64,000 nucleotides of DNA. Source: Tribonema minus. Taxonomy: Eukaryota; Sar; Xanthophyceae; Tribonematales; Tribonemataceae. Under the pieces are notes generated by a model that was not told where the DNA came from, searched no databases, and saw only the letters and a list, made by a program, of their open reading frames with translations. The position numbers and the translations under genes were made by a program. The first letter of the stretch is position 1. Each line of letters begins with the position of its first letter. Shown here piece by piece: positions 4,001 to 62,400 of this stretch. Location of the stretch: NCBI GenBank assembly GCA_017506865.1, contig JAFCMP010000552.1, positions 434,001 to 498,000 of the forward strand, written 5' to 3'.

Positions 4001-5211
4001 AGGGGCACGCGGAGGTGTGCGCAGCGCTGCTCAGCTACGCGCGCGCGACGCTCGGGAGGTTCAGCACGGTGCAGGACAAGGTCGGGCGCGTGCTCGGCGG
4101 CGGCGTCGCGAACCGCTGGAACGGGCGCCTCAAGGTGCGCCGAGTGCTGTGACACTTGACGTTGCTGATTTTCTTCTTGCTCGAGAACCGCTGGAACGGG
4201 CGCCTTGAGGTGCGCCGCAGCGCCGTGATGCGGAAATTGGGGCACGAGTAGTTGTACTCGAAGTTGGTGTATTTCTTCTTGCTGGCGAACCGCTGGAACG
4301 GGCGCCTCAAGGTGCGCCGAGCGCTGTGACGCAAAAATTGGGGCACGTGTACTTGAAGTGGAAGTTGTCATCAGTAATGTTGCTCAGGGCGCGGAACAGC
4401 CCGGGAGATCACCGCTGAGCTTGCCTGGAGCCAGAGTGCGCCCATTATCTTGGCATCGATGTCTCGTGGTTGACAGTTATCCTGATGACATTCTGTACTG
4501 TACGCTTGTCAGTTGTGCCGCCAAAAGGTGTGCATCGCAAAGTATGCCCATCTCATGTGTGTAGCCATTTGCCTGCCTATACTCCTGAACACCCCCGATC
4601 ACCACCAGACTGGTCAGACTCTGCCAACCGAGTGCCTAGGGTCAGGGTTAGGGTTAGGGTTAGGCCTCGCTCGCACCACGAGTAACATGCACACCGGTGC
4701 GCACTGACACGCTCGTCACACGCTTCCGACCAGGCCGCCAGTGGCTTCACTCATGCCATACTTGCCACATGCACACCCGTGCCCACTGCTCCGCTTGTGA
4801 GACCATGTCTCCAGTTGCCTCGCTCACACCATGATAGGTTTTCATGCATGTACCCCCCCCCCCCCCCTCCCTTCCCAGGTGATCGCGGACTACCTCACAG
4901 AGTCGCCTCACTTACGCCATGATTCTCATGCACACTCATACGCACTACCCTGCTTGTGAAACCAAGTCTCCAGTCGCCTCACTCACGCCATGAGTCACAT
5001 ATACCCCTCCCCTTCACCCCCCTCGCAGGTGATCGCGGACTTCCTGGCGGGAGAGCCGGCCTTCCGCGGCGGCCTGCGCGGCGAGCTGCTCAAGCAGGCG
5101 GGCGTCGGCGAGGAGGAGCTGAGGCGGGAGGTCAACGCGCTCGTCGCGGAGAGCCAGCGGTTCGTGGGCGTGCAGGTGCAGCGCCGCCAGAGCCAGATCG
5201 TCGTCACGTAA
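1068..5211 (+). CDS. Mannitol-1-phosphate 5-dehydrogenase (five exons)
   Basis: Exons 1068-1320, 1573-2204, 2890-3106, 3812-4134 and 5029-5211 join in phase to give 535 residues. The enzyme interconverts fructose-6-phosphate and mannitol-1-phosphate with NAD(H), in the mannitol storage and osmolyte pathway of many algae. The Rossmann fold shows as HLGAGRLGLGLVIPAL near the start of exon 2, and the polyol-dehydrogenase signature as KLLMVNGMHT in exon 3; YACENDH and DCMVDRIC are also typical. The first about 105 residues precede the Rossmann fold and are not part of the usual enzyme. They contain two similar blocks, one ending exon 1-side (GHHEGSKGEV) and one opening exon 2 (GHPEGAKGEI). The start was chosen at the ATG after CACCATC, but in-frame ATGs exist further 5'. 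Introns 3 and 4 and the 3' flank carry copies of the exon edges. Family call firm; N-terminus less so. Confidence 0.88.
4110..4330 (+). repeat. Echoes of exon-4 donor edge (M1PDH)
   Basis: The last 25 or so bases of exon 4 and its donor (true copy starting near 4110, GAACCGCTGGAACGGGCGCC) recur near 4185 and near 4288, spaced 75 and 103 bp. The second echo keeps the CTCAAGGTGCGCC donor context almost unchanged. Both lie inside the intron. Confidence 0.9.
4645..4664 (+). repeat. Interstitial telomeric repeat, (GGGTTA)3
   Basis: Three perfect tandem TTAGGG units lie inside intron 4 of the M1PDH gene. The TTAGGG motif is a common eukaryotic telomere repeat; here it is far from any visible chromosome end. 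Confidence 0.9.
4690..5050 (+). repeat. Echoes of exon-5 acceptor edge (M1PDH)
   Basis: A unit of about 115-150 bp occurs roughly three times. The last copy carries the used acceptor and exon start (CAGGTGATCGCGGACTTCCT, exon at 5029). The preceding copy, at 4877, has CAGGTGATCGCGGACTACCT and would still read in frame for a few residues. Flanking intron text (CGCTTGTGAGACC / TGCTTGTGAAACC) is repeated as well. Confidence 0.85.
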
Positions 5212-5545
5212 AGCGGGGGGGGGGTAAGGCTGCTACCAGGGAGTCTTATACCTGCCCCCCCCCCCTCGCACCGGTGTAGTTCGCCGGTGCAGTGGGGTGG
5301 AGGGGTGCAACGCCGCCAGAGCCAGATCGTTGCCACGTAAGCGGGGGGGGGGGGGGTAGGATGGTACCAGGGAGCCTTTTACCCACCCCTCTCCACGCCC
5401 TCCCCGGCATTGGTGTAGTTCGCTGGTACAGTGGGGTGGAGGGGAGGGGGGGGGGGCAGAAGGGGGCTGTGGGTAGGCTGATACCAGAGAGGCTTATACC
5501 TGGCCCCACCCCCGCACTGGGTGTAGTTCACCGATGGGGGCAGGG
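5179..5545 (+). repeat. Tandem unit running through the M1PDH stop codon
   Basis: The final coding segment, stop and first bases of the 3' flank (from CGCCGCCAGAGCCAGATCGT at about 5181) recur at 5314, followed by the same G-run, 'ACCAGGGAG' and 'GGTGTAGTTCGC' blocks. A third, coding-less copy fills about 5446-5545. The period is about 130 bp. It shows that edge duplication is not limited to splice sites. Confidence 0.88.
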
Positions 5546-6762
5546 GGGGCTGTGGGGGTCAAGGCCTTTTTGTGGCATGAGCTTGAAGTGTAGAAGTAGG
5601 CGCGCGAGTCTGTTACAGGCGGGTTCGCGAGGGGGATTGTTCAGGGGTTGAATGCAGGGGCTGGCTGCTACCGGCGCCGCCCCACCAGCAGGTGCATGCA
5701 CCGAGGCGGTTTCATGTATAAGCGGCACAGTGTCTGCCGCCCGCGCGTCGCGGCACGAGTCACGTAGACAGAGAGACAAGAGAAAATCAATTTTGGGGGA
5801 GGTTGCAATGTCGTTTCAGTAATGGAGTACATGGCCAGATGTGAGGCTGCGTTTGTGTGCTGCTTCTCACATGTATGCATGAGTTTGCTTCTGTATTTCA
5901 CAACATGTATTGATTTGTCTGGGAGCTGACGTTGGTCAGTGTCATAGTTATTAGCTCACACAAGTGCTTGGAATGAAGCTATTGGTGTTCAGTGTTGACA
6001 GTGACTGCGGCGCCTTTTCAGCACATTTGTACTTTCGCTCACGCGCACTACAGCACCACTTCTCTTACTGACAAGTTGAGCACTGCTGCTAACACAAATT
6101 GACCCATACTGCGGCGTAATGGCCCAAGTAGCGCTATGTTGCAAGTTGTCATGCAATTCTACACATGTACCTGCAAACGCCAAAACACAGTACCCGCACT
6201 GTAATACACTCATGCATTCGGCACAGCCAAAACAGTAGCAGACACACGCGACGAAAATGAGGCAATGCAAATGAATGACATTGATGTACAGCTGATCTTG
6301 TGCGCAAATATTGCAGAGCCATTGATGTGTCTTGGCTAAGAATCAGGGTATGTCCAGACTACTGACCCTCAGTTCCCCCAATTTATTTGCCTTGTGCAGA
6401 TGTATCATGTTGCTGTCATATAGCTGTCCGCCAGCCATTGTCAGCAGCACCTCAGCACACCCATTCCTCGGTACTGCAGCGTGACAGATGAGATGCAGCC
6501 GTCGCCGCGGCATCCAACAATTGCTGCCGGGCGATGCATGCTCAAGCATATGCTTGTGAGGTTGTACTTTTTATACAAGGCTGCTTTTGTAAATACAAGT
6601 CCATACGTACAAGGCTGCTGCTCTGTGCTCACAATCCAATGAGTTTTGACGTGCATGGTCACTTGCATATGGCCGCACGCGGGGGCCACGCTGACCTTCA
6701 TGCAGAACATGCAGCTCCGCACACATACACCATTGCCTGGAGGCTATCCCTCACGTCATACA
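5546..6762. other. Intergenic, nothing recognised
   Basis: Downstream flanks of two convergent genes. I found no coding exon, RNA gene or mobile element. It is less GC-rich than the genes. Confidence 0.5.
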
Positions 6763-7794: not shown

Positions 7795-8860
7795 GGCGAT
7801 GACTGCCGTCCCTCCCTCACTTTTCACCGTTGCGCGCAGCTCCTGTGGTCACAGGAGCACAGTAGGGGGCTCTCGGGGGCAGTCAATGATTTTGACAACG
7901 CGCGCTTGTTTGCTACTCTGCTTTGCGTTTAAGGGGGTGCTGAAAGCAAATGCATGCGTGGACGTTCGACTGGGCTGCACGTTACGTTGCTGGTGCAGTC
8001 ACTGATTGGCAATCATCATTCATAGTCTAGCATATCAGTGGATGACAGCAAGACAGAATTGACATGTCTTCAAAGGGAGCACATCGACAGATGCAGGCAC
8101 AGCGCTACATTCTGTATATACTATGCAAGAAATTGGAAGCGATGCCAGCTACGTCATGAGAAAGCATGTGTGTGTGATGGCCTCAACAACAAGGGGGGCA
8201 TAATGGCGTCAACAACAAGGGGGGCACAACCATGAGCGTCAACAGCAAGAGCGCGAGGAGCAACAAGCCACACAGTGCAGCTAGTTGTCATGTTGTAAGT
8301 GGTCCAGGTCCAGGGATCTTGTACAGACGAGGCAGAAATGGCGCGCGCAGAGGCCTAGCTCAAAAAGCGAGACAGCGGCGGCCATGGGGGGGCGGCAAAA
8401 CACTCAGTACACACAATTGTGAAGGCTCCAAAGCTACAGCACTGCGCCGCTGCGGGAATGGCGACTGGCAATGGCGTACGTGTGACGCAGCGGCGCCTCT
8501 ACGTCCGGGCGCATGCGCACCGCCCTGCACCCGTTCCGGTGCTGATAGGTGTATGTAGGCATGTATCGTCGATGCGCAAAGGGAGGGGGGGAGGGGGAAT
8601 CGATCAGAACACACCTCCACTTGCGCTCTGCAAGATGAAGTCCAGTTCATCGAACAGATGACGTGGCCGATGCGCTCGCCGCTGCTGCCCGCACCGCCCC
8701 CCTCAGTGTCCACGAGCGTGAGCTCACAAAGTTACTTCACGTGTTCAGGTGCGTGAAGCGTCAACCTGCGAAATGGCTTCACGACTCGCCCCCCTGGGGG
8801 GTGACGCATCGATTCGCACACTGTCCACATCGCGGGGCGAGGAATGTTTTCCCTCGTCAC
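7795..8860. other. Intergenic, short repeats only
   Basis: No supported gene. It contains a short tandem (GCGTCAACAACAAGGGGGG-like) at about 8180-8250 and a G-rich run near 8580-8600. Open frames here look like noise. Confidence 0.45.
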
Positions 8861-8867
8861 GAGGGAA

Positions 8868-9047
8868 CACGATGACGGACATGCCGTCGTTGGCGCCCCC
8901 CCGCAGCTGTAGTTGAAGCTGCGCGCTTCGTGGCAATCAGCTTGAAGTGGAACTTGCACTTCTATCGCACGATGACCGGCAGACGCATCAGCGGCAGCGC
9001 GCCCCGCGCGCGCGCGCCGCGATCCTGAAATTCAAGTCGAAGTTCAA
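8868..9047 (-). repeat. Echo of the PP2C 3' coding end beyond its stop
   Basis: On the minus strand the text around 8868-8905 reads like a decayed copy of the last exon (GANDGMSVIVF against the true GSNDDTSVVVLV), lying about 180 bp beyond the stop codon of the phosphatase gene. It parallels the post-stop copies of the M1PDH gene. Confidence 0.7.
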
Positions 9048-12000
9048 TCACTTCATGACGAGCACGACGACGGACGTGTCATCGTTGGAGCCCGCACGCA
9101 CGGCGTCCGCGACGAGGTCCCCCGCAACATCGACCGTCGCGAGATGGCGCGCCTGGCGCTTGAGGCCCGCCTTGAGCGCCGCTACCACTTGCGGCGTCTC
9201 GACAAAGTCCCACAGGCCGTCGGACGCGAGGACGAGCGCTGCCGCATCGGACGGCGGCGCGAGCGGGCGCAGGCGCACGACCTGGAACTGCGGGCGCGCG
9301 CTGAGCACGCCGGGGCACAGCTTGAGGCAGTCGATGTTGCCGAGCGCGCGCGTGGGGAGGAGGCAGCCGAGCAGGCGGTTCTGGACGAAGTGGCCGCCGC
9401 TGGCGAGGACGCGCGCGACCTCGTCCGGGTTGGAGATGTTGTGCCGCGCTGCGTAGGAGAGGGGGGGGGGGGGTGTTGAAGGGTGGGGGGGGGGGAGGGG
9501 GCGTTAGAGGTGTGGCAGGCAGGAGGGGGTGTACGGGCGAACGGTGCCCTTGTAGAAGGCAAACGCGCGGGCGAGAGCGTGTCGACAGCCTCTTTCGTGG
9601 TGTTCCTGTCGCGGGATCAGTACACAGCAGGTTCAGCAATGGCCGTGCACACGCGCACGCAGGCGTCTGCACATGTCGGTGAACAGCAAGCGTCCACTCG
9701 CTGAGTGGCGCAGCGCAACAGTCTGCCCCTGCCACGGTGACGCCCAGCCAGCCAGGCCCCTGACATTGATTGCTCGTCGCTCTGCTTGTCGTTGTACTTA
9801 GGGTTCCTAACCCTAATGGCCCTGCTGCTCCCCCCACACAACTGCCGCCACTACAATCACAACAGCGCACATGCGGCAACCCCAAGCAGCAGACACTGTG
9901 GCCCTGTCGCCATCTCAAACAAACTATCATGCGCCTACAGCGAAGCGGCGGCGGCGGCGGCGCACCTGTGCTGCGCACCGACTGCTTGTCGCCGTCGCGC
10001 GTGTACATGATGGCCTTGGAGTCGCCGACGTTCGCGGTCACCACGACGCCGTCGCACACCGCGACCACCAGCGCGCACGCGCCGCTGTTGTCGCCGTGCG
10101 CCTCCGCAAACGCCTCGAACTGGCGGCACGTCTTGGCGAACGCGTCCTCGAGCGCTGCCACGAGCACCCTCTCCACCGCCGTCGCGTCGCCCGGCACCGC
10201 GCCGCGCAGCGACTCCCACGTCTGGCTCTCGCGGAAGTGCAGCGGGAAGATGCGCTTCGCCATCGCCGAGCAGCTCGCGCCGCCTGCGCGGGGGGGGGGG
10301 GCGAGAGAGGGAGAGGACGGGGGGGGGGCTGAGGGGACGCGAGCCTGTCGAGCTGGGGTCGCGCGGGGGGGGGGTTGCGGGGGCGGTAGAGGACTGCTGG
10401 CGGATGCTGGGGTCGTCAATTGCGGCCTGTTGACACAGGCAGGTCAACGAAGAGCACACAGTGCCACTGATCCTCCGATGATTCTAGGTGACAACTTCAA
10501 AGGCAGCAACCGTTGGAGCGTGAACAACTTGCCACAGTCAGAGCTTTTGAAATTAAGGGCAGCAGGCAGCACGAAATGAGTGCACGTATTGTTCAAGTAG
10601 TATTTGAAGTTAGCATGAACTTGATGTTCCCTGTAATATACCGGACTCACCGTGACCATCAAATACGCCAAACAGCCCCACGAGTCGATCGCATGCGTCA
10701 CAGCCGGAAAACACGTCGGCTTCTATCAAGATGGCGTCCTCGTTGCCGGCGTGTCGCGGCCCGGTGATGGTGTGTGAAGACACCCTGCGCAGCAGACGCA
10801 GCACGGGACACAGCGGCGAGCGCTGCTGCTTGAAGTTGCAGGTAGTGGCAGCAGCGTTCAGAGCATGGGCGCACCCAGCGTTCTCAAGTCACGCTGTCAA
10901 TGCAGGCACCACCATGCGTCACCACGTAGATACCGCATGTCAGAACAAAGCGCAGCCGGTGCAGCAGATGCAGCAAGGGACGCAGCGGTGAGCGCTGCTG
11001 CTTGAGTCGCAGGTGGTAGCGGCAGCAGCGCTCGGAGCATGGACGCACCAGCGGGCTCAAGTTGCGCTGTCAACGCAGGCACAAACACGCGCCACCGTGC
11101 ATGTGCCACACACATCAGATCAGAGCGCAGCCGCCGCGCAGCCCCCCCCCCCCCCCCCCCCCCGCTCGGCACACAACCGTCGCAGGGGGGGGGGGGGGGG
11201 GGGGGGGGGGGGGGCTGTACTACAGATTTGTGATGCAGGTGGACTCACCGTGACACGGTAAGTCACCGCACGAGCCGTACCCCCGAGACAACCACAGAGA
11301 AAACAGTGCTTCAACTCCTTGTTGCAGTAGGACAGCGACGAGCGCGCAGGTGACTCACCGCTAACCACGGGCATGGTCGGCGCTGCGGCGTTCAGAGAGC
11401 CAACGGACGAGCTGCACCCCAGCGACAGTCGCACCCTGGGGGGACACCAACAGTACTTCAACCGCTTGTTGCAGTAAGGCAGCGACCAGCGCAGCGCAGT
11501 GACTCACCGCGTGACCACGTGCACGGTCGGCACCGCGTCGCTCAGCGAGCCCCCTGAAGACCCGTACCCATGCGACAAGCACACCCTAGGAGGGCGGGCA
11601 ACAGAGCTTCAACCCCTTGTTGCAGTAAGGACTCGCCGTGGTCACACTTCAAACCCTTGTTGCAGTAAGGACTCACCGCGTGACCACGGGCACGGTCGGC
11701 GCCGCGTCGCTCAGCGACCCCCCAACGACCCGTACCCTGGGGGCAACCCCACCCTAAGCAGGGAGGGCAACAGAACTTCAACCCCATGTTGCAGTGAGGA
11801 CTCACCGCGTCACCACGGGCACGGTCGGCGCCGCGTCGCTCTGCGACCCCCCCGAAGACCCGTACCCCGGCGACGACCGCACGCCCCCCAGCCGCACCAG
11901 GTTCGCAAAGCTGTTGCGCTGGCGCGCAAAGAACCCCGAGGGGGACATGCCGAGCCCCCGGGCGCTCCCTGCCCCGCCCCCCGTCGGCGGCGTCTGGCTA

Positions 12001-13418
12001 TTCGGACTGCCCTTGGAACCGTCCGTCGGCAGCAGATGACTGTTGCCCGGATCTGTGTCGGACCGCCTGAGCATCAGCGCGATCTCACCGAAGCTGCTGC
12101 TGGCTTTGTGGCCGGGCGCGGCAGCGGCCGTGGCGGCGGCGGGGTGGAAGCCGTGCGGCCGCGGGTCTGCGCTGCTGCTGCTCATCATGCTGGAGAGGTT
12201 GGACGCGACGGACACTGCCTTCTTGCGGAACGCCAGCTTGCTGCGCCGCGCTGCGGCGGCAGCGGCGGCGGGGGGGGGGGCGAGGGGGGGCGCGCGGGGT
12301 CACGCGCGATGCGGGCGCCGCGCGCGTGAACGCTGCTGGACCAGCAGCTGTACTGCTGCGGCCTACTTCATGCAAGCGGGTGCTTCAATGTGCGTTCGGC
12401 ACAGACGGCAGCGGTTCGATTTGGTGCATGTGTGTGGTGTGGTGCGCATGTGGGCTCGGGGCGTAGACAAGGCGTCGTAATACTACGGGCTGAAAGTGCG
12501 TGTTTGCTCTGCTTGTCTGCAGCGTCTGCTGGGTAGTTGACGTGCTGACGGGCAGCTGGCTGGGTGACATGGCGTTGCGATGCAGCACCGTCGCGCACTG
12601 CCGGCATGCATGCAAGTGTGCCGAGCACTGCTGCATCCGTCAAGCGCTTCTCGAGTACTCCGACTTTGAGGCACGTCACTGTGTTGACCCGAGTGTTGAT
12701 GACGGTGTTCTGTGCGCACTGTTCTGAAGTGTTTGCGCTGGAGCACTGGCGAGCCTGGCTGAAAACATTGCGCCCTTCCAACGTGCATGGCAGTTGCAGC
12801 CGCTGCCATCATAGTGGCTTATCGGTTCCCTGCCGCTTTATCGATGACTGCAGTTTGCTGCTCAGCGCTGACAGCTGCAAACGACACACTCGCAATGGAG
12901 GTGGCAGCAACAGCGAGCGCTGCTCTCACTGAAAAGCCTAAAGGCGAGGCTCGGTGCTTCTACAGTGTCTTCCGTGCCAACATACACCACACCGTGATGA
13001 CCGTCTGACAGTCCGACTCCACTATTGCGGCTTCCAGCTGCGCAACAGGCCCCCGTCACAGCGCCGCCAACAGGCAGGGCTAACAGGCAGCGTTAGCACG
13101 GACCTGGTGGTGCTGGTAGAGCATCTGCATGCTGCGCCGGCATCAGGGAAGTGTCCTGCCATTCCTGCCCCTCTTCTGCCGCAGCTGCGGCGTTGGACGC
13201 TAGCAATGCTCCTCCCTCGCTTTCAGCTCTCGCCATTGGCAGCGACCCCCCGCCATCGCCGTGTGAGTCCGACACCTCAACTTCGCTTTGAGAGTCGCCG
13301 AGCTGCTGCTGTTCGAACGACTGCACGTCAGCGGCACCGGCTGGCGGCTCCTCCATCCTTTGAAGCGCCAGCATCAGCCGCAAGCAGCGCTCAGGCTCTG
13401 CGATTGCAATGGCGGCGT
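9048..13418 (-). CDS. PP2C-family serine/threonine protein phosphatase (5' end unresolved)
   Basis: Exons in transcript order: 13418-13104, 12250-11806, 10784-10651, 10283-9966 and 9448-9048; phases agree at every junction, giving about 535 residues. The first exon listed opens at a clear acceptor (TTTTGCAG), so a starting exon lies further upstream and was not found. The catalytic core begins in the third listed exon: HTITGPRHAGNEDA, then the metal-binding VFDGHG, then NVGDSKAIM, TRALGN, LVLASDGLWDF and GSNDDTSVVVLV. These are the ordered PP2C motifs; the enzyme removes phosphate from Ser/Thr with Mn or Mg. The 250-residue N-terminal part is Ser/Ala-rich and probably disordered. The junction 13104/12250 uses a weaker donor (GTCCGT) and could be wrong. 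Introns carry donor-edge echoes. Confidence 0.85.
11142..11214. repeat. C22 - 21 bp - G30 inverted homopolymers
   Basis: Twenty-two C (11142-11163), a 21-bp spacer and thirty G (11185-11214) lie within a PP2C intron. As an inverted repeat they could form a long G:C hairpin; each arm alone could form a G-quadruplex or i-motif. Exact lengths may be affected by sequencing error. Confidence 0.8.
11245..11835 (-). repeat. Ladder of donor-edge echoes (PP2C)
   Basis: The exon ending at 11806 (minus strand) and its donor appear as ACTCACCGCG..CACGGTCGGCGCCGCGTCGCT on the plus strand. Copies start near 11672, 11503 and 11354, with a fragment near 11245. Each is followed by CGACCC..GACCCGTACCC and CTTCAACCCCTTGTTGCAGTAAGG-like intron text. 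Similarity falls with distance from the true exon: the nearest copy is nearly identical, the farthest badly eroded. Confidence 0.9.
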
Positions 13419-27575: not shown

Positions 27576-27864
27576 TTACACCCCCGCCACGGCTCCTAGT
27601 CGTGGATCGTCCATGGAGTCGAATGGCGTCGCCATCTGCAGCCCCCCCTGCGAGCCGCTGCTGCCGCGGCTCGCGCTGCTGCTGAAGCGCGCCGCCGCTG
27701 CCGCCGCCGACGCATCGGACGGCTGGTGCCGCTTCGGCGTCAGCAGCGACTTGCCATCGTGAGCGCTGGCTTCACCCGTGTCGCGCCGCATCTCGCGCGC
27801 GGCCTCGCCGCCCCTGGCGCCGCCCCCGCCGCCGCTGCAGCCGCCTGCAGACTGCGGCTGCCGC

Positions 27865-27954
<90 letters not shown>

Positions 27955-34805: not shown

Positions 34806-34836
<31 letters not shown>

Positions 34837-40989: not shown

Positions 40990-43900
40990 ATGAGACTGGC
41001 GCTCCCTGTGCTGCGAGTGCTCTTGCATGCACTGATTTGGGCCTATTGTCATGGGAGCTTGACCAGAGCGAATGCTGCAGGATCTCGGCCCGCTTTGCCT
41101 GCTGCGAGCTCGGCTCCTCCTCAACAGCTGACCTCTCGTCGCGGAGTGCTGTCAGCTGTCGTGGCAGCGACGACGGCGGTTCTGTATCCTGATCAAAGCT
41201 GGGCAAACGTAAACTCGAACGGGGGCAGGGTGATAAACTTGCCACTGGAGAATTGCGGCGGGAGCTGGTGCACGCTATTTGCGGTAGAAGGAAACGGTGA
41301 GTGTCCTGCTGCCCGCCTGCGTAGGCCTCGTGCAGCCCTTGCTGCATCACGCGTATAGGTGCTGTCTCCGAGAATTTGTTGGACTTTATCAGCATCTCTC
41401 CCCCGTGCTTGGCCCCAAGCCCCATGCATGCAAACCGTCGAGAGGTGTACCAAACAGCAACTTCTTGCGCTGCGCATACTTCTCACCGCAAACACGCTCC
41501 CTCATGTCTTGGTAAAGTGTTGCATAAGAACAGGATATTGTCACATTGCAGGTGTTCTGTTGCCACTGCGCTATGGCACAGCGCTGCAGCACCTCTGCCG
41601 CTTCTCATATACATTAGATACGGCCTGGCACTGCAGCCCCAACACCTGACTGGAGCTGCCACATAAAGCGGTCGGACTCTGTAGGCTTTGCATGTTGTTC
41701 TGCTGGGTGTGAAACTCAGAGGAGCCTCGCCGGCACCAGCAGTCAACATCTTTGTGCTTTTGACCGGCTGCTTGCGCACCAGCAATTGCCCTAGTCGTCA
41801 GGCGTCCGTTGTGGTGCCGCAAATTGTGGTGTTCCAAATGTTTTGCTGAGTGCAGCAGTGAAGGCTCTGTCCGACACACAGTTCTGCAATGCCCCTCAAT
41901 CACAAGCTCTGTGCATGCCGGAGATCGCTCGCGCTGTCAGCGCTGTGCATCACCACATCTACGCTAGCGACGGCGTGCTGGTGTTGTCATCTCAAAAGGT
42001 TTCTCCTCTTCCCGCACTGCCAGCCAGCCCCGTTGCATGACCACGCGCCTGTGAATGCGCTTGCGTTGCGCAGCTGCTGCTACGCGTAAAGCATCACAGT
42101 GCTCTACCATGGTCAGCAAACGTCAGTGTTTGCACTAATACTGATGATCGCGTGTCTGGTGCCCTCTGCTCCCCCCCCCCCTCCCTCCTTGCACTGTCAG
42201 TATTTCGTGGGGTGCTGGACACCGGCTCCCCTTTCCTTACGGTGGCAGGCAGCTGCACGCGGCGATGGGGCTGCTTCAGGGGCGAAGGCGTGCCCAGTGG
42301 CCTAGACGATGTGAGTCTTGTGCATTTTCATGAGGTGTCGGTCTGCACACTGTTGCAAGATGGATCTCTCGCTCTATGCGCCGACAGACCTCTTGCGTGC
42401 ATATAGAATGAGGTGAAAGAGTGGGCCTCGCCCAGCTGCCTAGACGATGTGAGTCTTGTGCACTTCCATGCGGCATTGGCAAGGATACTGTCAGCATCTC
42501 GCTCTCTTGGCGCCTAACAGGCCCCGGCATGTGTGAAGCATGAGGTGCGAGAGATGGGTGCGATCGCAATAACGCGCTACGCCGCATGGCGTTTACACAC
42601 TTCAGTAACGTGCACAGGATTCAGCTCCAGCCGAGTGATGTCTTCTCCTCTCTGAATGTCGGCGCAATTCATCGCCACGTGTGCACAGAGACGTCGGCGT
42701 GTGCGCTCATGGATGTTGAAGTTGCTGGGATTGAACGTGAAGTTGCGCTTCACAGTCTTCATGGCCTCACCTGGCATGCATGGTGACAAATCGTAAGTGC
42801 CAGAGAGCGACTAGTGGCGCCAATCGAGTGTGTATCGCTCACCACCGTGCCAGACATCGACGACCAAGGGACTCAAGCTGACACAAGACTCGCGGCTACT
42901 GCATGTACTGCGTTGAGAACCAGCAGGCAAAATATGAACAGCCACGTCAGTGCCCAACAGGACCCAACCTCAACATGGGCTGAGCTCTGCGCTGTCACCC
43001 ATCCACGGCCGCTGCCGACAGCCACACTCATACAGGGCAGCCGCCACGCCCTGTCCTCAGCAGAAGGTGCACAGTTCAATCACTCGCGGTGACCTGCACG
43101 CACGCGCACACGGCGCTTGTCCGTCCGCGTACACCTGTCCTGCTTTTGAATTCGATGGCGTGCGGCTCCGCCCATGGACGTGCTGCTCACATTGCGCAGC
43201 CCGCCGCCTCGTGCACGCGCGACAGCAGCATCTAACCCCAACCCTAACCCTACGACATGCAATGCGTGCTGAACTCACGTGAGACCCTGCGTCCTGAGCA
43301 CGGACTGCAGTAAGCAAACGCCCGCGCCCCCTGCCTCCGCGCGCGCGCGACCGCCGCGGCAGCACTTAACCCTAACCCTAGCCCCAACCCTAACCCTATT
43401 TTCAACCCCGACCCTAAGCTGACCCTGTTGAGCATCGCCACGCGTGCGTCCGTCCCGCAAACAGACGATCGAGATTTACGCGGGCAACTCGGGGCCCGTG
43501 TCCTGGAAGAAGGGCATGCTGGAGCTGGGGTTCCTGCGCAGCGACGTCGACGACGAGGGCTTCATCTTCAACAAGTTTATCTTTGGCGTGCTGAGCGATG
43601 AGCTCGTGAGCCGCCCCGGCGGGGTCTTCCTGGGGCTGGTCAAGTACAACACCAAGGGCATCCGGCCCACGTGAGTGCGCGGAAGGGGATGAGCGCGACG
43701 CTGTGTTTCAGTGTACCCGTGCTGTGCGTTCAGCGTACTGGCACTGTACCCACGCTGCTCTGCTCACGTGGTGACCTAGTGGCAGCGTGTGCAGCAGTAT
43801 GTGGGCCTGGTGTGCACAGCACAGCGCGACTTGAAGTCGTGTTCATAGCAAACTCATCCCATGCTTCTGCGGTGACTTCGGTTGCTGTTGTCTGCCACAG

Positions 43901-44559
43901 CACACGACTTGCGGGCGCATACCCGCTTGACTACTCAACTGAAATCCAACACTCATGCACTCACGTACTCGCCGACTCGACTCGCGCGCGCGCGCAGGTT
44001 CCTCGGGCAGACGGACGTCGCGGCGCTGCGCTTCGACTTCCCGCGGCGCGTGCTGAGCCTGTCGCGCGCGCCGCTCATACCGCGCGCGTGCGCCGACGCC
44101 GTCCCCCTCGTCGACCTGCGCCCGCTCGGCGACCCCGTGCAGCACTACGCGGCGCGCGCCGCGGCGGTCACGACCAAGCAGCGCGCGCTGCACCCGCCGC
44201 CGCCGCCGCCAGCGCACGGCGCCGCCGCCGCCAAGGACGTCTACGTCATCTTCGACACGGGGACGACGGGGCTCGCCGTGTCGCGCGCGCTGTGGGACGC
44301 GGAGGATGTCTACGCGCGCGTCAATGGCGGGCGCCCCTTTCGCGACGTCGCCGTGACGCTCGCGACGGAGGGCGGCGGTGCGGTGACGCTGTGCGCGCGC
44401 CGCCCGCTCACGACGCCACTCGACCTGCCGTGGCGCGGCTTCAACGAGCGCGCACACCTCCTCGTCATCGGCCTCGACTTCATGTCGAGCGTCGTGCTGA
44501 CCATCGACGTCGATGACCGCCGCCTGCTGTGGCAGCAGCTGCCGGACGCGGATGTGTGA
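40990..44559 (+). CDS. Pepsin-type aspartic protease with plastid-lumen-like presequence
   Basis: Exons 40990-41296, 42201-42310, 43465-43670 and 43998-44559 join in phase to 394 residues. Both catalytic motifs are present: VLDTGSPFL (Asp109) and IFDTGTTGL (Asp294), the bilobal A1-family arrangement, with a C-terminal LVIGLDFM..LTIDVDD block. The first ATG opens a signal peptide (LALPVLRVLLHALIWAYC). Residues 48-72 then read TSRRGVLSAVVAATTAVL..SWA, a classic twin-arginine signal with an A-x-A-like cleavage site. Together they suggest ER entry, plastid import and Tat transport into the thylakoid lumen. No Phe was seen right after the first cleavage region, so plastid routing is inference. A proline run (six) sits before the second catalytic motif. 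Intron 2 duplicates the exon-2 donor edge; intron 2 also holds telomere repeats. Confidence 0.85.
42294..42480 (+). repeat. Echo of exon-2 donor edge (aspartic protease)
   Basis: The exon end and donor CCTAGACGATGTGAGTCTTG (donor at 42311) is repeated exactly about 140 bp downstream (donor-like site at about 42450), with flanks CCCAGTGG / CCCAGCTG before and TGCATTTTCATG / TGCACTTCCATG after. The GTGAGT is intact in the echo. Confidence 0.92.
43231..43400 (+). repeat. Interstitial telomeric repeats (CCCTAA)n
   Basis: Clusters AACCCCAACCCTAACCCTA (about 43234-43252) and TTAACCCTAACCCTA..CCAACCCTAACCCTA (about 43367-43398) lie at the end of intron 2, within 70 bp of the exon at 43465. Confidence 0.9.
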
Positions 44560-46448: not shown

Positions 46449-49400
46449 CTAGACAATGTCTGGCGGCGCCGCCCACGGCACCAGCTCGAGCTCCGGTAGA
46501 TCTGCCATGACCTGCTGCAGCTTCCACTCGTTGCGGAAGAGCAGGACGGGGCGGCCGAAGCGGTCCTTTGCCTGGAAAATTCCAAAGAGTTTTCCATCCG
46601 CCTCCGCGGCGTCGACGGCGTCCCAGCCAGCGTTGCTCCAGCGCGCCGTGTTGAAGCCGGGCAGCGCCTGCAGCGCAAGAGATGAGTGCAGGAGATGTGT
46701 GCGTCCAGCGTATGTATGCACTGTATGAGATGACGACGCTGACGCGCGAGCGATAAGTGCATCCAAAGGAAAGCGCCTGACAAGACATAGGTGCAGGAGG
46801 CGTGCGCGTCCAGTGTAAAGCAGGTCACGCAGTGTGTGAGACGACGGCGCTGCAGCGCAAGAGAAAAGTGCGTCCAACATGAAACACTTTATGTGAAAGA
46901 CACGCTCAGGCTGAAGTAAGCGCATGGCTGACTGCAGCAGCGGGTGCTGACAGCGGCAACGAAGTAAGCGCATGGCTGACTGCAGCAGCGGGTGCTGACA
47001 GCGGCAACGAGTGGTGTGGATGGCCCGGTCATGGTGCGTCAGATGTCGGAGCCATGGTGCGTCGGCTCGCATGGCTGGCTGGCATGGAATCGGAAGCGTA
47101 GATGGCGCTTGATGCAATTCCCATGGGAGAGCCGTCGCTGAGCAATGACGCAAGCCTCACAGGCCATCCATCGCCAAAGCCCATCACCCGCACAGCGCAA
47201 GCAAGTAAGCGATTGAGTACGGACACCGCATCCTCGCACATCGTCCGTTTGTCAAATCGCCGCTTGCTTCGAGCGCACCTCCACGCCGCGCTCGTCTTCG
47301 AGCCAGTGCTGCACGGCGTCCAACTAGAACGTCTTTGCGGCGGCCAGAGATTCGCGCCTTTCAACTTCAACTTTGCGCTTCGACAATCACCCACCGCTCA
47401 CCTCCAGGCGCACCTCAACGCCGTACTCGTCCTTGAGCCGTACTGCACAACGTCGAACTGGAGCGTACCCACCGCGGCCAGAATATGGCTAGCGTTGCAA
47501 GCCTGCACACCTCATGCACTTCAACTCTGAACTTCAACTTAACATGTTACAAGTTCTGGCACACACCTCATGGCGTGTCTCCACGCCGTACTCGTCCTTG
47601 AGCCGGTACTGCACGACATCAAACTGGAGCATACCCACGGCAACTAGGATAAGACTGCCGTTGCTGTCGTCGGAGCGCTTGCGCAGCAGCAGCAGTGAAC
47701 TTCAACATCAAACTTCAACCCATCATCACACAAGTAGAAAAGGTTCTGGCGCTCACCTCGAGGCGCGTCTCCACGCCGTACTCGTCCTTGAGCCGGTACT
47801 GCACGACGTCAAACTGGAGCGTGCCACGGCGGCGAGGATGGGGCTGCCGTTGCCGTCGTCCGAGCGCTCGCGCAGCTGCAAACTTCAACTTTCTATCAAC
47901 TAAACACTTCAACATAATACACGCCCTCACCTCGAGGCGCGTCTCGACGCCGTACTCGTCCTTTAGCCGGTATTGCACAACGTCGAATTGCAGCGTCCCC
48001 ACGGCAGCGAGGATCGGGCTGCCGTTGCCGTCGTCCGAGCGCTCGCGCAGCAGCTGCACCGCGCCCTCGTCGAGCAGCTGCGTGAGCCCCTTGTTGTAGT
48101 TCTTGTACGTGGACGGGTTCGGGTTGCGTATGTACGCAAAGCACTCGGGGGAGAAGGAAGGAATGCCGGGGAACGCGACGCGCCGCGCGCCCGTGTAGAT
48201 GGTGTCGCCTATCGCGAAGACGCCCGGGTTGTTGAGCCCGATGACGTCGCCCGGGAAGGCCTCCGAGACGCTCTCGCGATCCTGCGCGAAAAGCTGCTGG
48301 GCCTGCGTCAGGTTGACGGTGCGCCCCTTCATGCGGCTGTGGCTCACGCGCATGCCCTTCTCGAAGCGCCCCGAGACGACGCGGATGTAGGCCAGGCGGT
48401 CGCGGTGACGCGGGTCCAGGTTGGCCTGCGCAGCGGGGCACCACCGGCGGGTGAACGATCGTCGCGAAGATGTTGGAGGGCAATGTCGATACTTGTTAGG
48501 TACACTTTGGAGTGGAAACGAGGTGCATACTTCGAAGTATATGTTCTCAAAGGACATGTGCGGTGGTCGGGGTGGCGCGGGTCCAGGTTGGCCTGCCGCA
48601 GCGAGGGGTGCCAACGGTCACCGGCGGTTGAATCATCGTCCCAAATACTTAAGAGTGAACACATTGGAGTGTGGAGGCACATGCACATATCATGTGTTTA
48701 AGGGCATGGGTACGGTGGTTGCGGTGGCGCGGGTCCAGGTAGGCCTGCCGCGGCGGCAGGGGGGGGGCACTGACCGTTGCAAAGGTGTTAGAGGGCAGTG
48801 CCAATGCTTGAAAGTACATGCGTTGGAGTGTGGAAGTATGTGCATATATTATATGATGTAAAAGGCATGTACAATGGTCGCGGTGGCGTGGGTCCAGGTT
48901 GGCCTTCCGGCGGGTGAACGATCGTCACAGATGTTTGAGAAGGAAAAGGCAATACTTGTATGTACTTTGGAGTGTGGAAGTGTGTGCATATATCATAATT
49001 GAAGTTTGTAATGTAGGGCCATTACAGAGGTCACGGTGGCGCAAGTTGAGGTTGGTCTCCTGCGGCAGGCGCCACCGGCGAGTGACACAGTCAGACACGC
49101 GATGCTGTTTATGACGTAACTGTACAGAAGTACACGCATAATGTACATACACGACGTAACGGGCAGCGGTGGTGGCGGTCTGCTGGCGAGCGGACGTGCA
49201 GCGATTGCAGCATTCAGTCGTCGTTCCACAGGGACAGCAGCGAGTCTTCCCACGCGGTCATTCCCACAAAGCGCGCCTAAACCTAGCCACCGCCACAGTC
49301 TTGCAGTATCAAGTTGAAGTTGACAAGCCCCCACCTGCAGCTTGAAGCAGAAGCCAGTAAACTCGGGGTACTCCGGCGTCAGCTGCTCCGCGGCATTGCC

Positions 49401-52069
49401 GCCGCTGCTGATGCTGCGCGGCGCAGGCCCCTGGCCCAGAGTGAGGAAGCGCTTGAGGAAGAGCTCCACGCCAAAGTTGACCATGGCGGAGCCAAAGAAC
49501 ATGGGGCTCTGCTCCCCCGCGTGCACCTTGGCCATGTCCAGGGGCTCAATCAGGCCCTCCAGGACCTGCAGGGGGTGAAGGAGGAAGGGGGGAGGGGGGG
49601 GGGGGGGTACTATTGGTTGTGCATACATGGGTGAATACGTTGATATTCGTTGATAGGTGCGCCTTGGCCATGCCAGGGGCTCGATGAGGCCCTTCAAGAC
49701 CCTTGTGGGGGCCCCCCGAGAGGCCTTGTCCACAGGCGGGGGGAGGGGGGGGGGGGGGGGGCGTTGGTGGTTGTCGTGCATGTGTCGTTGTATAGCGCTG
49801 AGGGTTAGAGTTAGGGTAACCCCTCACCAGACTGCCATTGCCTGTGTGCATTGCTCGCGTGTGGTGGACAGGAAGGCCTGCAGCTTGACGTATTTCATGA
49901 GCTGACATACGCCGAGTCAGATTGTCACTAGTGCACCTCCGTTCAACTTCAACAGCTGTCATGCCTCAGGGACTCATCAGCTCCGCTTGCTGTGAACAGG
50001 GCCAAAGCCCCGCCACCAGTGGCAAAAAACGTGCATCGCTGCGCGCACAAGACACACGCCGCTTGCGCCACGCACAAGGCAGCGTGTACTCACACATCAC
50101 ACTTTGAAGTACTTCATACCTGAAGTATTCGTACATGCATGCAAGTCAGCACTGCTCAGCTCACAGCGCACGTCATACCCCCCAGGAGCACGCGAAACCG
50201 CGCCTCCACCAAAGCAGCAAGAAGAGCAAAGCAGCGCTTGCATTCAGTACACCTCGATGTACACATTCCTGTCAGCGCGCAAGCCCAGCTCACCTCAATG
50301 TCCTCCGGCAATTGGCTGATGGCGCCCCGCCGACGGCGGCGTTGACATGCACGTCTAACTGCAGTCTGCGCGTTGGTGACAATTTGATGCAACATATCCC
50401 CTCAAATTTTCAAGTCAGCGGGCAAGCTCAGCTCACCTCGACGTCCTCCCGCAGCTGGTTGTACAGCGTCTCCCCGATGGCGATGGGCAGCTCGGGATCA
50501 TCCAGCTCCAGCGTGCCCATCTCCTTGGCGCGCCCCGTGCGGTCGCCGCGCTCAAAAAGGTGCACCAAATTGGTATCGCGGTCGAGGACGCCCTGCGATG
50601 TTGAAGTATGCATACTTGAACGTTAGTAATCAACTTCAATGTTGAATTGCACGTGTCAAATTGAAACAGGGGCACGAGGCCCATCTTGCGATCGAGGACG
50701 CCCTGCAATGTTGAAGTAAATATACCTCAGTGTCGGTAACTAAACTTCAAAGTTGAAATGCACCTGTCCCATTGAAACAGGTGCATCGAGTTGATCTCAC
50801 GGTCGAGGACGCCCTGTAATGTTGAAGTACGCACACTTCAACTGTCAAAGGTCTCACATACATGCTGAAACAGATGCATCGAGGCTGTCTCATGAGGGCC
50901 ATGCAATCTTAAAACAGTATACACGCAGCACTGCTCGCAAACTACATAAACTTCAACGTTGAAGCACACACCAAGAGGACAGGTCACATGATGAGTCGGC
51001 GCGCCATGTTTTGTGTCGCGTCCTGGTATGTATGTAGGTGTGGCAGCGCTCGACACTTGCTGCGATATACACAAGGTGCACTGGGCCAATCATGGTCTAG
51101 TGCACCCCCCGACCTTTGCAGGCAGTTGAAGTTCACACCAATCAGCAGTATGCTACAGTACCAACAATGCTTTGTTTCTCATCACGTGAGTGCTCTCCCT
51201 GTGAGCGGCAGCGGTTGCAGCTCCCAACAAAGGCACATGAGATATATCCACGCTCTGATACGTCCGGCAAGTGCCAGCGATGTCAACATCAATGGAAGAG
51301 CAGGTTTTGACAAGTACTCACTGTATATGAGCTTTGGAAGCCAATGCACATACACGCGATGCTCCAGATGTACATGGCAATGAACACCCTGGTGACACTT
51401 ACCCACATGCCGTTGTAAACCTTGCGAAAATTTGCTTATGAGCATATGCCGTACATCATCAACCCTGTATGCCCCCCAAGGCGCACACAACAATACCTAC
51501 CTACCCACCCAGCTCTCCAAACCTCACCTGGAAGTTGGGCCCGTCGCCGATGGGCCACAGCACGGGCACCATCTGCAGGCCGAAGTCGCCCTCTATCTGG
51601 TCCAGCAGCTCGAACGGCGACAGCGACGGCCTGTCGAGCTTGTTGCAGAAGGTGAAGATGGGCAGGCCGCGCAGGCGGCACACCTCGAACAGCTTGCGCG
51701 TCTGCGGCTCGAGGCCCTTGGCGGCGTCGACCAGCATGACGGCGTTGTCCGCGGCCGCGAGCGTGCGGTACGTGTCCTCGCTGAAGTCCTGGTGGCCCGG
51801 CGTGTCGAGCAGGTTGATCTGCGCGCCGGCGTACTCGAAGCTGAGCACTGTGGATGTGATGGAGATGCCGCGCTGCTTCTCCAGCTCCATCCAGTCCGAC
51901 GTCGCCTTGCGCTGGTCCGCGCGCGAGCGCACCGCGCCCGCCTCCTGAATCGCGCCGCCGTACAGCAGCAGCTTCTCCGTGAGCGTCGTCTTGCCCGCGT
52001 CGGGGTGCGAGATGATGGCGAAGTTGCGCCGCCGCGCGATCTCCGCCGCCGGCGCCGCCCACTGCGCGC

Positions 52070-52100
<31 letters not shown>

Positions 52101-52418
52101 ACTGCCGCCGCGCCGCGAGCGCCGCGTCCCCCCCTCCGCGCCGTCCGCCGCCTCCCCGTCCGCCGCTGCGCCGTTGAGCGCTGCTGCCTCTTCTGCTGCT
52201 GCGTCGTCGAGATCTGCTGCTGCTGCTGCCGCGTCGTCCAGGGCCGCCGCCTCCACCTCGGGCGCGGCGGACATGCGCAACCGCGGCGCCGCTGCCGCTG
52301 CCGCCGCCGCCGCGGGGCGCGCCGCGTGGCGGCGGAGTGCGGGAAGGAAAGTGAAGGCGGTGGCGACGTGGGGGTGCGCCAGCGCCACCAGCGCCAGCGC
52401 CGCCGCTGCGGTCCTCAT
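46449..52418 (-). CDS. prfC: Peptide chain release factor 3, plastid-targeted
   Basis: Exons 52418-51528, 50592-50437, 49565-49335, 48425-47931 and 46667-46449, all in phase 0, give 663 residues. RF3 is the translational GTPase that strips RF1/RF2 from ribosomes after termination. G-domain motifs are all present: SHPDAGKTT (about 138-146), [16 protein letters not shown] and CNKLDR. Downstream blocks match bacterial RF3 ([39 protein letters not shown]). The 130-residue extension begins with a signal peptide ending ATAFTFLP, the A-F motif of complex red plastids, then an Ala-rich transit region. The protein therefore probably works in the plastid. C-terminus DIV, stop TAG. Every intron carries copies of an exon edge. 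Very confident in family and exon set. Confidence 0.94.
46660..46870 (-). repeat. Acceptor-edge echoes of RF3 exon 5
   Basis: The acceptor area (plus strand GCGCCTGCAGCGCAAGAGA near 46664) recurs degraded near 46769 (GCGCCTGACAAGACATA) and again near 46845 (GGCGCTGCAGCGCAAGAGA), each followed by GTGCGTCCA-like text. Periods are about 80-100 bp. Confidence 0.75.
46915..47012. repeat. Perfect 46-48 bp tandem duplication
   Basis: GAAGTAAGCGCATGGCTGAC..CAGCGGGTGCTGACAGCGGCAAC occurs twice in direct succession within the last RF3 intron without visible change, so it is recent. Confidence 0.92.
47262..47960 (-). repeat. Donor-edge echo ladder of RF3 exon 4 (four copies)
   Basis: The exon 4 end (plus strand CGCCGTACTCGTCCTT..CCGGTATTGCAC, at 47950) is copied at about 47776, 47586, 47421 and 47286. 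The nearest copies span about 100 bases of exon including CGTCCGAGCGCTCGCGCAGC. The farthest has lost frame and several bases. Spacings are 174, 190, 165 and about 135 bp. CTTCAACTT motifs fill the gaps. Confidence 0.93.
48395..49090 (-). repeat. Acceptor-edge echo ladder of RF3 exon 4 (four copies)
   Basis: The exon 4 start and acceptor (plus strand GCGGGTCCAGGTTGGCCTGC, about 48410) recur at 48578, 48730, 48889 and 49042, spaced 167, 152, 159 and 153 bp. Each copy continues into the same intron text (GGGTGAACGATCGTC.., TTGGAGTGTGGAAG). Together with the donor ladder, both sides of one exon have been copied outward. Confidence 0.93.
49660..49740 (-). repeat. Acceptor-edge echo of RF3 exon 3
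   Basis: Minus strand near 49705 reads [11 protein letters not shown], a copy of the true exon 3 opening [11 protein letters not shown] at 49565, about 140 bp upstream. It sits between G/C runs like the polypyrimidine tract of the real acceptor. Confidence 0.85.
50287..50450 (-). repeat. Donor-edge echo of RF3 exon 2
   Basis: Plus strand CAGCTCACCTCGACGTCCTC (true, about 50429) is echoed as CAGCTCACCTCAATGTCCTC at about 50288, 141 bp away, keeping the GTGAGC donor on the minus strand. Confidence 0.85.
50570..50900 (-). repeat. Acceptor-edge echoes of RF3 exon 2
   Basis: GTCGAGGACGCCCTGCGATG (true acceptor, 50581) recurs at 50691 (ATCGAGGACGCCCTGCAATG) and 50802 (GTCGAGGACGCCCTGTAATG), a strict 110-111 bp period, each followed by TTGAAGTA. 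A fourth partial copy starts near 50868. Confidence 0.92.
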
Positions 52419-59400: not shown

Positions 59401-62400
59401 TCGAAGTACATGTATTTCGCAGTGACGCGCAGCTGCCACACCTGTACACCGCGCTGCACTCATGCGGTACCCACTTCAGCAATCAACTTCAACTACCATG
59501 CCGGTTACACCCCGCCAGCAGCCTGCTGCTGATGCTTGTGATTTCAGCGGTCGGTGAGCCCGCACCTAATTCAACCTCGTGCTTCAAACACCACCTGGTG
59601 ACGCACCTTGCCGCCTTGCTGCGCGTGCGCCGCTGCCACCGCCGCAGCCATATTGTACCTCGCCAGAGACCCGCTGTTTACGCTGTGATGGTAGCGGTCG
59701 ATGCGCCGGCGTCCACGTTATATCATACTTCACACATCGTGCGAGTGCCGCACCTACCGCCGTGCTGCGTGTGCGCCGCCGCCATGTTGCACCCTGCCAG
59801 CAGCCCACTGCTGATCTAGTATGCGCCTGCATCTACTTCAACAACATATCGAACGCGCCCACACCTACCACCATGGACCTCAAACCCCAAAACATCTTCC
59901 CACAGCAGCGGCGCACCTTGCCACCTTACTGCGCGCGCCGCAATGCCACCGCCGCCGCCATGATGTACCCCGCCAGCAGCCCTTTCTGAACACTGCCGTT
60001 GAAGCGGTCCCAACAATGTTCTTCAGGTGCTTGCACCTCCATGCAACTTATTCAATGATGCGCCCACACCCACTTCAACCTCGTACGTCCAGCACCACAT
60101 TGGCGAGGTACCTTGCCGCCGTGCTGCGCGCGCGCCGACGCTACCGCCGCCGCCATGTTGTACCCCGCGAGCAGATCGCTGTTGACGCTGTGGTCGTAGC
60201 GGTCGATGCGGCGGCACCAACCTCAACAACGTACTTCACCACACTAGTGACGCACCTTGCCGCCGTGCTGTGCGCGCGCGTCGCCGCCACCGCCGCTGCC
60301 ATGTTGTTCCGCTGCCAGCAGCCCGCTGTTGACGCTGTGGTCGCAGCAGTCAATACGTGGGCGCCCGCTTCAACAGTATACTTCAAACACCACCACCAAG
60401 TGACGCACGCACCTTGCCACTGTGCTGCGCGCGCGCCGGCCGCCACCGCCGCCGCCATGTTGTACCCCGCGAGCAGCCTGCTGTTGATGCTTGTGATGTG
60501 AGCAATCGATGCGCCCGTACCTACTTGAACAACGTCCTTTAGACGCCACCACCAAGTGACGCACCTTGCCGCCGTGCTGCGCGCGCGCCGACGCCACCGC
60601 CGCCGCCATGTTGTACCCCGCCAGCAGCCCGCTGTTGACGCTGTGGTCGTAGCGGTCGATGCGCCGGCGCCCGAGCGCGGCATCGTAGTAGCTCGCCACG
60701 CCGCCCGCCGCGTACACCCCCGCCACCGCCTCAAACTGCCCGTTCACGACCACGCCGCCGGTGTCGCGATCCACCTCAATGCCGCTCGCGGTGGCCACGC
60801 CCACGCGCGGCTCGATGTGCGTGGACGCCAGCACAATGTAGTCCGTCTGCAGCGCCTGCTTCTCTGTGGGGGCGGGGGCGGGGCATGGTGGGCCCGTGGC
60901 GGCGCGTGAGATGGGCGGCGGCGCGTGAGTCGGGGGGCGCGAGTTGCAGCGTCGGCGCTCGCTCAGAGGGTGTCTGAGCGGTGCGTCGTTGTCTTAAGGC
61001 TAGGGTTGTTCACACCAACACGGCACTACGTTCATCCCATACGTATGCTGGCGATAGGCTCCTCTGCGTCAAAGCACTCCACATTGGGACGTGGCGGTCC
61101 GCAGCACCAGCATGGCAAAAGTCGTTCTGCTTCAACCGACGTGAGCCAACGTTTCCTGACCCTGACCCTGGCCCCAGTTCTACACCTTAACAGCCACATT
61201 GCCGCAGCAGGCAACACATAACCGCAGCCTCAAACTCCGACTCCGACTCACCCCAGCCCTGCAGCACAAGCTCCACGCTGCCCTTGTCGACGTTGAAGCG
61301 CAGGTCCGTCACGAGGCGCTCGCGGATCGGCTCCACGCCCTCCTGCTGCAGGCGCCGCTGCAGGTGCATGGCGAGGTATGCCGGCAGCAGGCGCTGCATG
61401 GGCGCCACCTCCGCGTACACCTGCGAGACGCGCAGCCCGCCCCTGCGCGCCAGCGCCAGCGCCACCTGGGCGGCGGTTACGCGGAGCGGTTACGCAGGGC
61501 GGTTACGCAGGGCGGTTAAGCAGGGCGGTTACGCGACGCGTCATGTGTGTGGTGTGCGGGGGTGATAGCGGACACAGGGTCTGGCCAGGGCACGCGGTTC
61601 AGAAACGCTTACGGAGCGGCTACGCATGTGTGATGTATTGCTGATATGCAAGGACGAAGGGGATTGGCGGTGCGCGTTTTGCAGCCAGCGCCAGCGCCGC
61701 GTGTGCGTGGGGAGCGAGGGGCTGAGCGCAGGGGACTGCTGAGCACTGATGGGCACTTGAAGTGACGCTAATGATGTGCAGACACCGCGCCGTGCATTGG
61801 CATCGTGCTGCCAGGCATGCCGCGCGTGCATGTGTGCTACTTGGAGGTCACACTGTCGCTGCGGGCGCGCAAGGGTTGTGTAGCGTGCGCGCCCGAGTAT
61901 CATCACAAATGGCACTGCCTTTGAATGCGGCTGGACAGCGATTATAGGGAAATCCACTTGTCACACTTGCCTGGACTGTGGGCACGCATATGAAGTTGCC
62001 ACCAGGACCTCCGAGTCCATGGGCGATGATGATAGAGTGTTCAAATGACTATGTACACATGAAATGAGGGCCCGCATGAACGACGCTTCTGCATGAACGA
62101 ACGCTTCTGAATCACAGCACCCCATTCAAAAGACGGTCGTGTACTGCTGGTGCACATGTAGTGTACAAGCTGCCCTCACCTCTGAGCCCAGGAAGCCGCC
62201 GCCAATGACGGTGACGTGCCTGTGGAGCGTCACAGCCAGCAGCCACGGGGGGGGGGGGGGGGGGGGGGGGGGGTGAGCGTCATCTGATGCGCTGTGTCGC
62301 GCTTTCGAGCATGCGCACGGCCAGCGTCCGCGGCAGTGTCAGCTGCCCTGTTGCGTCAGCTTCACGGTTAAAACGTGGTAACCTCAACTGCAAATTCGAC

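Follow-up and report, generated by a model that had tools for sequence, protein, structure and literature searches.

How introns lengthen without mobile elements has mostly been inferred after the traces of the process have vanished. The question is raised by a window of the 158-Mb genome of the yellow-green alga Tribonema minus, a stretch of 64,000 nucleotides (GenBank assembly GCA_017506865.1, contig JAFCMP010000552.1, positions 434,001 to 498,000 of the forward strand), in which the coding edges of several genes recur as ladders of tandem copies in the adjoining noncoding sequence. By our count, the window holds ten ladders over coding edges in four genes, namely five in the gene for plastid release factor 3 (RF3), three in that for mannitol-1-phosphate dehydrogenase (M1PDH), and one each in a PP2C gene and an AIF-like gene; an earlier note on this DNA had reported at least ten separate ladders. 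The traces found here are dense, datable and spread over the genome sample, the dating being based on an exon copy that stays fixed and an intron copy that drifts; the duplication rate, the preference for edges and the tolerance of decoy splice sites would therefore become measurable by resequencing strains. They also raise the question of how the spliceosome bypasses an intact decoy GT and AG a hundred bases away.

Density and Spread of Edge Copies

Local repeats were searched by self-BLAST, which returned 54 direct and no inverted pairs in the window, and 175 direct against 4 inverted pairs in a contig sample (200 kb of another contig, joined from the pieces L010–L029), while a first-order Markov control made for the window yielded none. 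Direct repeats thus far outnumber inverted ones, and the earlier proposal that tandem duplication acts locally and takes in coding edges is upheld. Local repeats cover 11% of the window and 10% of the contig sample. The ladders had been described as private to their own exons, and this is borne out by stretches of the RF3 (introns 3–4), AIF, PP2C and M1PDH ladders, each of which matches the genome once; the single match of the RF3 stretch also means that no second allele was seen. That introns are “built from” such copies was too strong a wording, since in the four genes described next 7,668 of 23,610 intron bases (32%) lie within a detectable local copy.

The four-gene set comprises RF3, M1PDH and PP2C of the window and a gene for an ABCC transporter. 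The five exons of RF3 were placed by homology and the 23 exons of ABCC with brown-algal homologues, the ABCC edges being imprecise at two places (the exon 6 donor and the exon 15 acceptor, the latter counted as an echo, that is, as an edge with a copy in its flank), while the M1PDH tests omit additional upstream coding sequence of the deposited protein. A second set consists of 27 exons taken from family models anywhere in the genome, with repeats playing no part in the selection; it is made up of 8 PP2C matches of 78 (those with loci given) and the 19 AAA matches that were scored among 203 candidates. The ends of these exons were predicted without transcripts, from a simple rule and the coding model of a home-made gene finder, which joined genes badly and served for strong exons and as a guide only, and the edge counts omit two edges (one start-like, one stop). 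Together, the two sets provide 116 splice edges.

Edge-copy ladders occur across the genome sample, on many contigs, and not only in the window. Echoes were detected by BLAST at 21 of 64 splice edges in the four genes (14 of 44 in ABCC) and at 17 of 52 in the 27-exon set, giving 38 of 116 in total, with 23 of 58 donors and 15 of 58 acceptors affected (P = 0.17 for the difference). In the 27-exon set, 14 exons are flanked by a copy of their own edge (donor edges 12/26, acceptor edges 5/26). At the 38 echo-bearing edges, the offset of the nearest copy ranges from 52 to 343 bp with a median of 144.5, and the copied exon part from 17 to 159 bp with a median of 43.5; the ranges given in the earlier note (periods of 70–195 bp, exon parts of 15–110 bp) are somewhat narrower. 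Furthermore, repeat coverage of the matched coding hits in the 27-exon set drops inward over successive 50-bp bins, from 0.34 in the outermost bin to 0.13 and then 0.01, with no coverage beyond the third bin, and outside the hits it declines from 0.30 to 0.08 by 1.5 kb.

Placement of Arrays at Coding Edges

Under random placement with a coding filter, 12.3 of the 33 arrays in the four genes are expected to straddle an edge (standard deviation 2.7), while 27 do so, a number reached in 0 of 4,000 trials; when the introns are collapsed to their pre-array length, 11.0 are expected. The overlap of arrays with exon borders on which the earlier note had built its reading is therefore above expectation. 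Because a pair decays more slowly when one of its copies is constrained, edge arrays were also given double weight, which raises the expectation in the four genes to 16.3 (P = 0.0001). ABCC alone has 18 of its 21 arrays on an edge against 7.1 expected (P = 0.00075 against the 10.6 expected with double weight). The three window genes by themselves have 9 of 12 against 3.8 (P = 0.002), and in the 27-exon set 18 of the 22 arrays within 300 bp straddle an edge against 6.1 (9.5 with double weight, P = 0.00035). A different scoring without a low-complexity filter gave similar counts, with 26/32 against 10.3 in the four genes and 18/21 against 5.8 in the 27-exon set.

Identity limits matched for age, 85% for edge pairs and 72% for interior pairs, left 11 edge arrays of 22 against 6.2 expected (P = 0.021) and 10 of 16 against 4.4 (P = 0.003), with a combined P of 0.0007. 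In addition, arrays were detected in noncoding sequence alone with the exons masked, by which the advantage of a conserved copy is removed; 17 of 24 such arrays were edge-anchored against 5.4 expected (14 of 24 under a stricter link), and 11 of 17 in the 27-exon set were part of an edge ladder (P = 0.0016). We take the edge excess as real and modest, about two- to threefold; it shrinks, and mostly persists, once the advantage of the conserved exon copy is removed.

A more sensitive test, in which every edge was compared with its flank by local alignment under a 1% cross-gene threshold, found copies at 53 of 116 splice edges, with donors (28/58) and acceptors (25/58) both represented. Copies were found for 13 of 116 intron probes taken 150–230 bp into the flank, a slightly unfair control as it compares two drifting copies, and for 1 of 116 exon-interior probes taken 110–190 bp inward, some of which overrun short exons. 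Among unspliced edges, copies are present at two of six stop codons and at none of one start codon; the M1PDH stop codon is clear, with a score of 87, while that of PP2C is weak, its score of 38 exceeding the threshold (29) but not the highest null score (48). As the M1PDH array sits at a stop codon, splicing is not required for ladders, on the strength of this one clear case.

Decay of the Copies

The copies decay neutrally. In 41 edge alignments, the exon part differs at 8.1%, 9.1% and 18.1% of codon positions 1, 2 and 3, respectively, and the noncoding part at 14.9%; the share of third-position mismatches fits the ratio of 1:1:2 predicted for one drifting and one constrained copy (P = 0.76), and frameshifts are present in 15 of the 41 copies. 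On account of this neutral decay, the copies are no spare exons. Of the 22 donor copies with a readable site, 18 retain GT, and on the acceptor side 12 of 12 retain AG, while drift at 8.6% per site is expected, by our arithmetic, to leave about 84% of GT or AG intact. Since the retention is near this expectation, decoy splice sites seem neither purged nor kept. Duplication by the assembly was rejected because most copies differ by some 2–40%, many of them with indels.

Comparison with Known Systems

The earlier note knew of no description of such arrays; their kind is, however, already known, though seldom described. The “mirages” of amphioxus are reported to be tandem duplications of exon–intron boundaries at either end, with units of 150–160 bp in globins (PMC3087553; PMC3902484), and many of their copies carry AG/GT, splicing is apparently normal and the copy number is variable (PMC3087553). 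The arrays of T. minus are alike in that exon edge, splice site and intron are repeated in tandem at both 5′ and 3′ boundaries, and their units span the boundary at all of the echo-bearing splice edges of the two sets (21/64 and 17/52). The mirages were reported gene by gene in a chordate, whereas T. minus is a xanthophyte alga in which copies accompany 38 of the 116 sampled splice edges by BLAST and 53 by the sensitive test; one clear case at a stop codon and tests against a placement null are further differences.

Related cases are found in potato and human. Intron gain in the potato RdRp gene occurred by tandem duplication across an intron–exon boundary (PMC4974935), which is likewise crossed in T. 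minus, but the potato gene gained a spliced intron and an extra exon, while the copies of T. minus are silent within an existing intron. At human exon–intron boundaries, variable internal tandem repeats in recent segmental duplications (PMC2812944) also modify introns, but their units are about 30 bp long and they alter exons or create introns. Introners (PMC9860276) are another source of intron sequence, yet they copy themselves into many genes, unlike the private ladders described here. New in the present case are the lineage, the density and the placement test; a literature search of open-licence papers found no genome-wide or stramenopile account of boundary-spanning arrays.

Origin of the Ladders and Alternative Explanations

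The ladders are probably mirage-type arrays, in which a coding-edge segment is tandemly duplicated, the silent copy decays neutrally and the intron lengthens. A segment of about 50–340 bp (median about 145) spanning a coding edge would be duplicated in tandem, sometimes repeatedly. The copy attached to the rest of the exon would remain coding, while the second copy, with its own splice site and a piece of flank, would turn into intron (or 3′ flank) and drift neutrally; splicing would keep the outer, original site, leaving the mRNA unchanged and the intron longer. At the molecular level, duplication might begin with slippage during replication or with the repair of staggered nicks or breaks, and unequal exchange might follow. 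Both staggered nick or break repair and replication slippage are mechanisms by which duplications arise, and the unit lengths observed here would suit them. We infer that edges are prone to duplication, or shield arrays from loss, rather than merely tolerating arrays. A more tentative proposal is that coding edges act as hot spots of duplication, whether they are splice sites or stop codons, and that recurrent tandem duplication of 50–300 bp across the border of coding and noncoding sequence is a main source of intron growth genome-wide.

The nucleosome or transcript-boundary cause suggested earlier is not borne out. The unit lengths are too broad for nucleosomes to be named as the cause, and one clear ladder lies at an unspliced stop codon. 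A step in G+C content was also tried as a trigger and rejected, as the step from exon to flank is similar whether or not an edge has echoes (P = 0.55).

Several observations weigh against a special role of the edges. Coverage by masked arrays has no peak at donor edges (0.13 at 1–20 bp, 0.22–0.24 at 101–300 bp) and peaks just mildly at acceptors (0.19–0.29 near the edge, 0.16 at 301–400 bp), and in the 27-exon set 8 of 17 masked arrays end within 25 bp of an edge against 4.7 expected (P = 0.07). In the 200-kb sample, array coverage was no lower far from the 22 confident exons found by the gene finder than close to them, and the three window genes alone give just P = 0.05 with double weight. 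The ABCC region was chosen for its high array density, the other three models of the four-gene set are the very genes in which the ladders were first noticed, and the data represent one strain and one allele, with gene models made without transcripts. As well, the nearest copy is the most similar one in just 4 of 11 multi-copy ladders. By eye, RF3 intron 4 and PP2C suggest a simple conveyor that moves copies outward, the youngest lying next to the exon, but this was rejected on that count, RF3 intron 4 not being among the four; the order of similarity looks like minisatellite turnover and not like orderly growth.

The pattern might arise from uniform local tandem duplication with purifying selection against duplications that harm coding sequence, the edges seeming special just because a constrained exon copy keeps arrays recognisable for longer. 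This explanation is possible, though doubtful. It is consistent with local repeats that cover about 10% of the window and the contig sample, with many clusters away from predicted exons, with matched coding hits in the 27 loci that are free of repeats deeper than 150 bp from their ends, with the decay of the copies and with the nearly flat profile of masked coverage; however, the edge excess remains under the twofold detectability weight in both the four genes and the 27-exon set, under age-matched thresholds, and among arrays detected without any exon sequence. Alternatively, edge arrays might persist longer because contractions touching the exon copy are purged, while arrays in the intron interior shrink freely, so that the enrichment would come from survival and not from mutation. 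The resemblance of the ladders to shuffled minisatellites, in which far copies are often closer to the exon sequence than near ones, and the variation of amphioxus mirages in copy number between haplotypes (PMC3087553) are in keeping with such persistence; nevertheless, the exon share of the unit is mostly less than one half, so that contractions would be blocked in part only, and arrays under age-matched limits are enriched too, which leaves this explanation rather unlikely.

Other sources of the copies fare worse. Tandem duplication has been documented as a source of new introns (PMC4974935, PMC3443670), and the introns could have been born by duplication of an AGGT-containing exon segment, as in the Rogers model, with the copies as remnants; this is very improbable, as the copies carry the existing splice site and flanking noncoding sequence, and at offsets up to 700 bp the four genes contain no copies spanning the donor and acceptor of one intron and a single pair with both copies in exons, in the alanine-rich exon 1 of RF3. 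Many copies retain GT or AG and an open frame, as functional mutually exclusive or alternative exons would, but codon positions 1 and 2 differ by 8–9%, half the third-position rate, which fits one neutral and one constrained copy and not coding constraint on the copies. Together with the frameshifts and with the deposited RF3 and M1PDH proteins, which use the outer edges only, this makes functional exons highly unlikely, in agreement with the earlier view of the copies. Mobile introns resembling Introners would share the intron-scale unit length, and a dispersed repeat of about 145 bp is present in one ABCC intron, where an array surrounds it; yet the ladder stretches of the four window genes match the genome once each instead of recurring in the introns of many genes, and the copies contain coding sequence of a single exon, so that this source is scarcely credible.

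Ladders in Individual Genes

Throughout the alignment, the joined exons of RF3 show no difference from the RF3 protein deposited for T. minus, which starts 48 residues further in, and the M1PDH exons used agree in the same manner with the deposited T. minus mannitol-1-phosphate dehydrogenase and end at the same stop codon; the exon ends of both genes are therefore firm. Both deposited proteins have the sequence expected of splicing at the outer exon edges and not at the copies. Single M1PDH exons had no significant match in NCBIfam, Pfam and PDB searches, while the joined protein retrieved the deposited one.

RF3 lies on the minus strand, with exon 1 at 51528–52418, exon 2 at 50437–50592, exon 3 at 49335–49565, exon 4 at 47931–48425 and exon 5 at 46449–46667, and both exon 2 and exon 4 have echoes on both sides. 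In intron 1, the acceptor edge of exon 2 has two copies upstream (50593–50842, unit about 111 bp). In intron 2, the donor edge of exon 2 is copied once (50266–50436, offset 144), and so is the start of exon 3, upstream of it (49566–49701, offset 135), the latter copy having too few intron bases to score as an echo in the per-edge BLAST count. The acceptor edge of exon 4 is preceded in intron 3 (48426–49065) by about four copies as seen by eye (three aligned), with about 30 bp of exon and a unit of about 152 bp, and the donor edge of the same exon is followed in intron 4 (47260–47930) by about four copies, again by eye (three aligned), with up to about 125 bp of exon. All four introns of the gene (46449–52418) are in phase 0, each after AG.

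On the plus strand, the M1PDH exon at 3812–4134 (the fourth coding exon of the deposited protein, number 3 in our model) has its last 27–29 bp and donor copied twice downstream within 4181–4330, at 4181–4228 with 88% identity and at 4285–4330 with 98%. The last exon (5029–5211, stop codon 5209–5211) is preceded by a copy of its acceptor edge at 4740–4895, which includes poly-C, cag and the first 17 bp or so of the exon. The tandem array at the stop codon occupies 5175–5444 and repeats the coding end and 3′ flank with a unit of about 131 bp according to Tandem Repeats Finder (TRF), a fainter repeat continuing to 5536.

Exon 1 of PP2C (11806–12250, minus strand, donor edge at 11806) was placed with the gene finder and an open joined frame; exons 3–4 are backed by Pfam, and exons 1–2 by the open joined frame and the motif FDGHG. 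Its intron 1 (11302–11805) carries about four decaying copies of the exon 1 donor edge, as counted by eye, with up to 77 bp of exon. The AIF-like exon, also on the minus strand (60565–60863, donor edge at 60565, start approximate), matches AIF structures and is followed by a ladder at 59504–60564 of about seven donor-edge copies, spaced by about 150 bp according to TRF and self-comparison, with a donor region recognisable by eye in six of them.

The earlier note had named five genes with such ladders, and the fifth, a putative aspartic protease, stands in part. On the plus strand at 42292–42553, an exon end with the motif LDTGSPFLTV and a donor after 42310 is followed by a copy at +138. The tandem pair is real (42292–42421 and 42430–42553, 71% identity), while the exon end is a motif read by eye, and the pair is thus a candidate for an eleventh ladder with an unconfirmed exon. 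Pfam and PDB searches with the putative exon of 36 amino acids gave no match, nor did the downstream frame at 43876–44556 match any database entry.

Outside the window, the ABCC (MRP-type) transporter gene at positions 158246–177727 of the joined sample L010–L029 has many intron arrays, and its echoes show at the protein level in tblastn. The dispersed repeat of about 145 bp in its intron (L026:785–930, C268:260785–260930) has at least 39 copies on many contigs, with 78–84% identity, and no Rfam match.

Other Observations

In both the window and the contig sample, the motif TTGAAGT/ACTTCAA occurs at some 13–16 times the frequency expected from base composition, and TTGAAG in the sense orientation clusters within 50 bp downstream of donors, at 4.8 per kb. 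Short telomere-like runs (TTAGGG/CCCTAA) were seen by eye in introns or beside genes at about 4650, 9815, 43235, 43370 and 49815 of the window, and they are possible scars of break repair. As well, a long open frame on the minus strand at 27576–30209 encodes a subtilase (Pfam S8, E value 5e-39) with a poly-glutamine tract, and the local repeats found there are G+C-rich and lie inside the frame.

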